From the NCBI GenBank assembly GCA_902782445.1, contig CACZNC010000024.1, positions 1-64,000 on the forward strand: a DNA stretch of 64,000 bases, read 5' to 3'. Below are positions 1 through 59,842 of this stretch, in pieces. Positions within the stretch are counted from its first letter, which is position 1; the number at the start of each line of letters is the position of its first letter. This DNA comes from an uncultured Ruminococcus sp. GTDB lineage: Bacteria; Bacillota; Clostridia; Oscillospirales; CAG-272. The notes under the pieces are model-generated. The model was not told the origin of the DNA and made no database searches. It worked only from the letters and a program-made list of their open reading frames with translations. Position numbers and translations under genes: made by a program.

Positions 1-109
1 TGGGATGGCCCGTGTCATGTTTGTATATATGGCATTCCCACCCCGTCGTTCGCACTCTACGGAGAGCGATCAAAACCCATATAGTTAGCTTTTTAGAGCA
101 AGAATAGTA
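1..109. repeat. Right end of dispersed TIR element (copy 1, cut by window edge)
   Basis: The first 109 bases match the right half of the element at 42672-42985. The segment 47-80 is identical to 42923-42956 and 59777-59810, and the preceding bases keep the arm CATTCCCACCCC (33-44) that pairs with the TGGGATG at the window start. The last 26 bases are nearly identical to the right end of the copy at 59685-59839. It ends in AGTA, followed by TGA (110-112), the same right flank as the 42672 copy. I see no coding potential. The left end lies outside the window, so its target duplication cannot be checked. Confidence 0.8.
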
Positions 110-41702: not shown

Positions 41703-42671
41703 ATGATCCGAAAGATAAAATTTGACAGCTATCCCGAACCCCTGTCCGCCGTGTGCCTCGGATGCGGACGGCTGGGCGGGGACTACGACGAAGAGAGATC
41801 CTTCGCGCTCCTCGACCGGTATTACGCGATGGGCGGGCGGTTCCTCGACACGGCGAACTGCTACGGGCGGTGGACGGGATCCGGCCTCAACGAATCCGAA
41901 CGGTGCATCGGACGGTGGCTGAAAGCGCGGCAGGTCACGGACATGGTCGTCACCTCGAAATGCTGTCATTACGCCTTCGACGCCCATGACAAGAGCCGGG
42001 TGGACCGGGAGTCGGCGATGGCGGACCTCGAGGATTCCCGCCGGGCTCTCGGACTCGACACGATCCCGATCTATCTGACGCACCGGGACAACCCCTCCGT
42101 CGATATCCGGGTGATCGTCGATTTCCTCGCGGAGATGGTGCGGTCCGGGAAGGTCCTCCGGTTCGGCCTTTCGAATTATAAAGCGGATCGGGTGCGGGGG
42201 GCTCTCGACTATCTCGGGGACGACTGGCGGGAGCTTATGGTCGGCGTGTCCAACGAATGGAGCCTGCACGAAGAATGCCTCGCGGCGGACGCGGGAGGGG
42301 AGCTCGAAGGACACGACGGCATGGTGCGCACGGGCCTCGCTCTCCGCGCTCTGCACCGGGAGAAGAACCTGCCCCTCTTCGCCTTCTCCTCCACGGCCGG
42401 GGGATATTACGCAAAGATCCAAAACCGCCTCCGGACGGGAGACGGCGTGAAGATCGGAAAATCCGACGCCCAAGTCCTCCGGAAGCTCAACGCCCTCTCG
42501 GAAAAGACCGGAGCCGCCCCCGTCCCGATCTCCCTCGCCTACCTCCTCCGCGCGGGGATCCCGGCCGTCCCGATCTCGGCAGTGTCCTCGGAAAAGCAGC
42601 TGGAGGACTTCGAAACCGTCTCCGCGTGGGAAGACGACCTCTCCGATCTCAGCCCCCTCGCAGGGATCTGA
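41703..42671 (+). CDS. Aldo/keto reductase
   Basis: It is an NAD(P)H-dependent oxidoreductase with the (beta/alpha)8 fold. The 322-aa sequence shows FLDTANCYG (catalytic Asp/Tyr region), DMVVTSKCCH (Lys), a THRDNPSVD strand with the likely His, and RFGLSNYKADRV, the usual AKR strand-5 motif. The cofactor region (VPISAVSSEKQLEDF) is at the C-terminus. Its substrate is unknown. The closest match in feel is the sugar-related AKR11/12-like group, which is inference. ATG 41703 has CGGAGGAAACGGGC upstream. The stop TGA (42669-42671) is also the left copy of a 3-bp duplication around the element at 42672. Confidence 0.88.
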   Translation: MIRKIKFDSYPEPLSAVCLGCGRLGGDYDEERSFALLDRYYAMGGRFLDTANCYGRWTGSGLNESERCIGRWLKARQVTDMVVTSKCCHYAFDAHDKSRVDRESAMADLEDSRRALGLDTIPIYLTHRDNPSVDIRVIVDFLAEMVRSGKVLRFGLSNYKADRVRGALDYLGDDWRELMVGVSNEWSLHEECLAADAGGELEGHDGMVRTGLALRALHREKNLPLFAFSSTAGGYYAKIQNRLRTGDGVKIGKSDAQVLRKLNALSEKTGAAPVPISLAYLLRAGIPAVPISAVSSEKQLEDFETVSAWEDDLSDLSPLAGI

Positions 42672-42985
42672 TACTCTATTCCTTCTAAGGAGTTACGCGG
42701 CTTCTTGAAAGAAGCCTGGCAAGAACTTCAATTGGGTAAGGGAAAATGACTCTCTCAATTATGTTTAGTCTGTGTCCGCACACCAATATAGTCATCCAAC
42801 CTTATCAGAGTTATCGTTCGTGAGCTCAATGTTTCAGCTGACATAAGCGAGAATTCCCGAAGGGGATTCTCGGGGGTGGGATGGTTGATGTTATGTTTGG
42901 ATAAATGGCATTCCCACCCCGTCGTTCGCACTCTACGGAGAGCGATCAAAACCCATGAAGATAGCTCCATAGAAGGAAAACAGTA
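42672..42985. mobile_element. Full copy of dispersed TIR element, 314 bp (copy 2)
   Basis: The ends are inverted repeats: the first 24 bases (TACTCTATTCCTTC...) match the reverse complement of the last bases at about 20 of 24 positions. Direct repeats TGA flank it (42669-42671, 42986-42988). It has no open frame of note. Inner hairpins are GGCTTCTT/AAGAAGCC (42699-42716), an 11-bp stem with one G-U pair around GAA (42848-42872), a long-range stem GGGGTGGGATG/CATTCCCACCCC (42873-42920) and CGCACTCT/AGAGCG (42927-42944). Blocks 42695-42729 and 42923-42956 are identical in the copy at 59685. A nonautonomous transposable unit is the simplest reading; a structured RNA is possible. Confidence 0.75.
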
Positions 42986-42994
42986 TGAATAAAC

Positions 42995-59647: not shown

Positions 59648-59684
59648 TCCCGGAACTCCGTTGATTTCCTCAAATTGAAAATAA

Positions 59685-59839
59685 TACTAATCTCAAACTA
59701 AAAGGGAAAACGCGGCTTCTTGAAAGAAGCCTGGCAAGAACTTCTGAAATGGGAAAAGGACAGGCTAGACCAATAACGTTCGCACTCTACGGAGAGCGAT
59801 CAAAACCCATATAGTTAGCTTTTTAGAGCGAGAATAGTA
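59685..59839. mobile_element. Internally deleted copy of dispersed TIR element, 155 bp (copy 3)
   Basis: Its ends form imperfect inverted repeats (TACTAATCTC... against the reverse of ...GAGAATAGTA; about 15 of the first 19 positions). TAA flanks both sides (59682-59684 and 59840-59842). Block 59710-59744, which includes the 18-nt palindrome GGCTTCTTGAAAGAAGCC, and block 59777-59810 are identical to the full copy at 42672. The middle 190 bp of the full copy is replaced by about 32 bp. Its inverted repeats differ from those of copy 2 beyond the first bases, yet are complementary to each other. It lies after the Gfo/Idh gene and touches the terminator that follows. Confidence 0.75.
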
Positions 59840-59842
59840 TAA

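Follow-up and report, generated by a model that had tools for sequence, protein, structure and literature searches.

The repeat at positions 42672-42985 was found to be one copy of a MITE-like, nonautonomous element family, with inverted ends, TNA target duplications, many copies, orthologous sites that are empty in relatives, and no internal transposase. The reading that we consider likely is that of a high-copy DNA transposon of the MITE type with a modular structured core, which is moved in trans, and whose core is most probably an RNA of 3′ untranslated regions (3′-UTRs). As far as our searches reach, this family, MITE-like and with a conserved core that is structured and modular, has not been described before.

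Copies in the Window

The window analyzed here is the first 64 kb of the 124-kb contig C24, which belongs to a draft genome (4.16 Mb, 144 contigs, 94% complete). This genome is designated G000; C-numbers are contigs, L-numbers are stretches examined, and the other G-numbers are relatives. The three copies of the original prediction, at 1-109, 42672-42985, and 59685-59839, were borne out by the sequence as described, and so were the TGA flanks of the copy at 42672 and the TAA flanks of that at 59685. The features are as follows:

1..109, + strand: third copy, right end only, followed by TGA at 110-112 (sequence)
42669..42671, + strand: left target duplication TGA, which doubles as the stop of the aldo/keto reductase gene 41703-42671 (sequence; empty ortholog L215)
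42672..42985, + strand: complete copy of the long type, 314 bp, TACT...AGTA (whole-genome BLAST, ends)
42672..42692, + strand: left terminal inverted repeat TACTCTATTCCTTCTAAGGAG (sequence; end subtypes)
42695..42729, + strand: left block, the hairpin GGCTTCTT/AAGAAGCC plus TGGCAAGAACTTC (111 genome matches; compensatory changes across the genus)
42794..42828, + strand: conserved core motif ATCCAACCTTATCAGAGTTATCG...GAGCTCA (alignments; 0.97 identity even in copies without the left end)
42829..42922, + strand: long hairpin module, with short hairpins in its place in other copies (alignment; covariation)
42923..42956, + strand: right block CGTTCGCACTCTACGGAGAGCGATCAAAACCCAT (151 genome matches)
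42965..42985, + strand: right terminal inverted repeat, reverse complement TACTGTTTTCCTTCTATGGAG (sequence; end subtypes)
42986..42988, + strand: right target duplication TGA of the 42672 copy (sequence)
59682..59684, + strand: TAA, left target duplication of the 155-bp copy (sequence)
59685..59839, + strand: internally deleted copy, 155 bp, with terminal inverted repeats of subtype TACTAATCTCAAACTAAAAGGG (sequence, alignment)
59840..59842, + strand: TAA, right target duplication of the 155-bp copy (sequence)

The copy at 1-109 is without its left part because the window starts where the contig starts. The TACT motif is only the outermost part of a longer inverted repeat of some 21 bp; in the copy at 42672, its left and right versions match at 17 of 21 positions.

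Copy Number and Distribution

Both blocks were searched through the whole genome, as the original prediction had proposed, and many further copies were found. With up to 3 mismatches, the right block gave 151 matches and the left block 111, while the reversed control patterns gave 0 in both cases, and chance is thus excluded as the source of this repetition. These counts are lower bounds (at least 151 right ends and at least 111 left ends), and the true copy number is higher because many contigs end inside the element. BLAST with the whole element gave 40 scored matches among those listed.

Among 59 sampled related genomes, 14 matched the element, all of them from its own genus; those relatives that have names are MAGs from the ruminant gut (rumen or abomasum), with the labels Oscillospiraceae, Ruminococcus, or Clostridia. 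These matches in sister species came from DNA searches and not from the covariance model R1, which contains 10 pairs only and was used solely as a profile; over 245 genomes of the order, it returned the own genome and weak matches in one further genus. In G200, from another genus of the family, a left-block-like GCTTTTTGAAAAAAGCTTGGCAAAAACTTTT was seen in intergenic tandem repeats (L200, L204, and L208). Plasmid and phage collections contained no match to the element, and viral contigs gave two stray left-block matches with the right block absent. On the 90-kb viral contig IMGVR_UViG_3300028888_000097, the left block lies between two genes (L268:4754-4783).

No known RNA gene of a non-mobile kind was found at the element: in the window, Rfam gave 0 matches at the gathering threshold, and permissive searches with E up to 10 gave chance-level matches only. 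HEARO/omega RNA, group I and II introns, and CRISPR had been considered because of the hairpins, and were rejected, as none had Rfam support and the flanks of the element are duplicated; to our knowledge, none of these systems has duplicated flanks.

Ends, Target Duplications, and Orthologous Sites

Next, 33 copies with both ends readable were compared, and the 3-bp flanks were identical in 32 (TAA in 12, TGA in 11, TCA in 8, and TTA in 1). The central base varies between copies yet always agrees across one copy, indicating that TNA is a duplicated target and not element sequence, so the predicted target duplication was genuine. Immediately to the right of the duplication, about 30 of 32 copies have a purine. 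The ends fall into at least three subtypes, TACTAAATCCCTTCTA / TACTATATTCCTTCTA, TACTAATCTCAAGCTA / TACTATTCTCGTTCTA, and TACTCTATTCCTTCTA / TACTGTTTTCCTTCTA, and remain inverted repeats: over the first 17 nt, the fraction paired in the 33 copies was 0.76, against a permuted mean of 0.71, and none of 5000 permutations was as high. Left and right subtypes were also associated beyond chance (0/5000 permutations), with few chimaeras, such as L080, whose left and right ends are of different subtypes. Copies occur in both orientations, and several with identical ends lie at different TNA sites, suggesting recent spread.

Two deletion derivatives, L252:6318-6432 (C84 of G000) and L139:3930-4080, retain, besides the left half, no more than the terminal 5-6 bp of the right end, and still have matching TGA or TCA flanks. 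Downstream of groEL in G001, a composite element (L096:1040-1575) has inverted left blocks at both ends and is enclosed in the long inverted repeat GTTGACAG.GGGGGAGTAG.

The original prediction had also called for empty sites with a single TNA, and these were found at three genes, in each case as a single stop codon. The window copy adjoins the stop codon of the aldo/keto reductase (AKR) gene, and in SIG615 (L215, 77% protein identity) the junction between AKR and DUF1667 has one stop codon and is free of the element. At radA, the element of the present genome covers the stop codon, and the junction is bare in most of 24 relatives. The G006 ortholog of a sufD-like gene (L138/L272) ends in one TAA, again element-free. 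Moreover, two of these 3′ ends have received related elements independently in other species: in RUG10688 (L218), the AKR-DUF1667 junction contains one whose left block is oppositely oriented, and in G006 another lies right at the radA stop, in the other orientation.

A clean 3-bp duplication fits a DDE enzyme. Integration based on RNA or single strands (group IIC-like, or by hairpin recognition), targeting gene ends or terminators, would agree with the structured core, with the many copies inserted between stop codon and terminator, and with end subtypes that vary in sequence yet stay inverted repeats. However, the clean duplications, the variable central base, and the two orientations fit a staggered double-strand cut, and neither a reverse transcriptase, intron, or HUH signature nor an Rfam intron match was seen, so we regard such a mechanism as very improbable.

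Search for a Transposase

The IS1031 group also uses a TNA target with a 3-bp duplication, and one published element of this group has the end GAACCTGTCTAGTATCT (PMC12016507). The proposal that our element is a nonautonomous relative of that group, within the IS5 family, held in part: the element is nonautonomous, with terminal inverted repeats and the TNA duplication, but descent from the IS1031 group was not supported. Its end, TACTNNNTYYCTTCTA, is unlike GAACCTGTCTAGTATCT, and neither PF01609 (DDE_Tnp_1) nor PF13586 (DDE_Tnp_1_2) had a match in the present genome, 94% complete; an IS5-type transposase was thus undetected here. DDE genes of 12 sister genomes had no flanking TACT-type ends, and no transposase was found between terminal inverted repeat pairs 0.5-4 kb apart or by scans for inverted repeats plus TNA around all DDE matches. 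The full-length transposase with TACT ends and TNA duplications that the original prediction had suggested looking for, i.e., an autonomous partner with the same ends, was not found in the own or sister draft genomes; the gene could lie in an assembly gap. A derivative of an IS1031-group insertion sequence is therefore doubtful, even with the shared duplication rule and with a putative insertion sequence in the sister genome G004 (L180:953-2568) that resembles the group, having a DDE_Tnp_1 gene, IS1031-like ends (GGACGTGTTTTGTATC / GAACCTGTTTTGTATC), and a TTA duplication.

The Structured Core

Copies of 114-400 bp were read through and none longer was seen; as predicted, no transposase is present in the interior. 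A feature beyond the original prediction is that the interior is not filler and consists of a conserved structured core. In the alignment, the left hairpin is followed by the middle motif ATCCAACC.TATCAGAGTTATCG..CGYGAGCTCA, then by an exchangeable hairpin and finally by the right block. In the copy at 42672 the exchangeable hairpin is long; elsewhere it is short, with stems that include CAATC/GATTG, TGATC/GATCA, CGGC/GCCG, TCGC/GCGA, CAGC/GCTG, and CGAC/GTCG, among others. The minimum free energy of the window copy had a z-score of -5.9, i.e., 5.9 standard deviations below shuffles. When the named structure of 29 pairs was applied to 16 short-type copies, 94.2% of the cells were paired, against 35-48% when it was slid. 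In helix 5, pairing was 100% throughout these copies, and 4 of its 5 pairs differ between copies on both sides; swapping of ready-made palindromes could be a partial source of this covariation. Across the genus, compensatory changes were seen in the hairpin of the left block, and this 5′ hairpin was all that RNAalifold recovered from the mixed genus-wide alignment.

Indeed, small palindromes (e.g., GCTCAACAAGTTGAGC, CTGCTGAACAAGTTCAGC, and CGGAGCAGCAAGCTGCTCGG) are inserted in core loops in L170 and L171 (G002), L175 (G006), and L253 and L257 (G000), sometimes with the same one at two places of one copy.

The core is conserved independently of the ends. Of 46 aligned copies, 19 have lost the left end (0.34 identity to the consensus). 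The long hairpin, middle motif, and left block of these 19 were at 0.96-0.97, as in intact copies; since the sample was partly collected with the two blocks, the comparison is fairer for the middle motif and the long hairpin. In agreement, G001 and G014 contain a recognizably related core, ACGCGGCTTTTTGAAAAAAGCCTGGCAAAAACTTT ... GCGAGCTCGCAGGG..CCCTGCTCGCCGTAGCCGG, within elements with entirely different ends, and the unrelated ends around the same core in sister species are GGGGGAGTAG... and TGATTAACTAATC....

Selection would yield a conserved core with a decayed left end, and gene conversion between copies might do likewise. It is accordingly possible, albeit not probable, that this is a plain MITE, in which only the ends matter, the fold is incidental, and the core is uniform from youth and gene conversion. 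The many near-identical young copies and the chimaeric ones are what such an element would show, but the same core inside unrelated ends, the undiminished core of copies without a left end, and the hairpin pairs altered on both sides speak against it. The reading we prefer, with a core that would be under selection as a folded RNA, is consistent with all three.

Position Relative to Genes

Gene calls near the copies came from a codon model that had been trained on verified genes. The 3′ end of a gene faces the copy in 32 of 33 cases; convergent genes flank 15 copies and divergent genes flank 1. In 18 of the 33, the duplicated TNA is the exact stop codon of a coding frame, and the left end lies against the stop in 15 of these 18. 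Compared with all non-coding TNA of the window, 16% of which are stops, the share of 18/33 is high (P = 4e-7). When the comparison is limited to TNA no more than 60 nt from a stop, where 39% is expected, the excess is weak (15/23, P = 0.01); strong targeting of stop codons was therefore dropped, and a preference was kept as modest. Gene 3′ ends are thus where insertions persist, any preference for the stop codon as such is modest at most, and composition explains much of the coincidence with stop codons. Among the 48 gene calls of the window, 36 end in TGA, 12 in TAA, and 0 in TAG.

This position also bears on whether the core is an RNA used by the host, a functional 3′-UTR or small RNA that was spread by transposition and then fixed, so that the ends decay and the core stays. 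The 3′ bias, the left ends set against stops, and the cores kept without a left end would be expected of such an RNA. Nevertheless, there is no fixed neighbor gene or orthologous position, the sites are empty in relatives, and avoidance of promoters accounts equally well for the 3′ bias, and we hold this explanation to be unlikely.

A Second Element Family

A second family (L158-L174; G002 and G019) consists of structured elements of about 340-430 bp whose interior is unrelated to that of the first. Its left end is that of the first family (95.8% over 24 bp), its right end is AACCGTTTAGAAGCGAAACAGTA, and TNA duplications, read by eye, were found in 5 of 9 copies. The core, of about 340 bp, contains GAAACGCTGCGCGTTTC... 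and GGGAGGCACGGGGGGACACC..., and the hairpin GAAACGCTGCGCGTTTC / GAAACCCTACGGGTTTC also covaries. The two families are thus alike in the 24-bp left end, the TNA rule, and a structured interior, and differ in their cores. In the present genome, at least 30 matches to the second family were listed in the genus search, mostly without ends (e.g., C18:34302-34457, L293); the 64-kb window contains none. A THF riboswitch (RF01831) lies near one of its elements in G002 (L159:2640-2736).

Two unrelated cores behind one end type argue for one enzyme acting in trans. It is a rather improbable further idea that the core represents a novel structured RNA class active in mobility, with one trans-acting system moving several unrelated cores between TACT ends; such an RNA may, for example, take part in recognition together with the ends, or guide insertion to gene 3′ ends.

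Discussion

In the mechanism that we propose, a putative transposase supplied from elsewhere would recognize the inverted ends TACTNNNTYYCTTCTA or their variants, cut them, and join them across a 3-bp TNA stagger, so that TNA would be duplicated. The interior would not be a wrecked transposase gene; with its 5′ hairpin, paired middle, exchangeable hairpin, and conserved 3′ block, it would fold as a single strand, most likely as RNA that is transcribed together with the upstream gene and forms its 3′-UTR.

QMITEs of Coxiella are an example of bacterial MITEs (PMC5896051). Such elements resemble ours in their length of 100-400 bp, the lack of an open reading frame, the inverted ends, the short duplication, the intergenic position, and strongly folded transcripts, which are predicted here; they differ in that the modular core of our element is conserved apart from the ends and is common to species with other ends. 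BOX elements of Streptococcus pneumoniae, which are transcribed in part, are likewise modular mobile repeats of variable length that often overlap extreme gene 3′ ends (PMC3049150). By description, they are set apart by the TNA duplications and TACT ends found here, and by exchangeable hairpins in place of the repeated boxB units of BOX.

The mobility of the element is ordinary, and the conservation of its core separate from the ends is unusual. Bacterial MITEs usually count as debris of transposons. In the present case, one end type is common to two structured cores unrelated to each other, the copies number well over a hundred, and conservation apart from the ends is seen for one of these cores, even in sister species whose elements end quite differently. 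If this core is a functional RNA, MITE-like movement would distribute a folded 3′-UTR module across the genome; if it is not, the case would show the extent to which gene conversion mimics selection on RNA.
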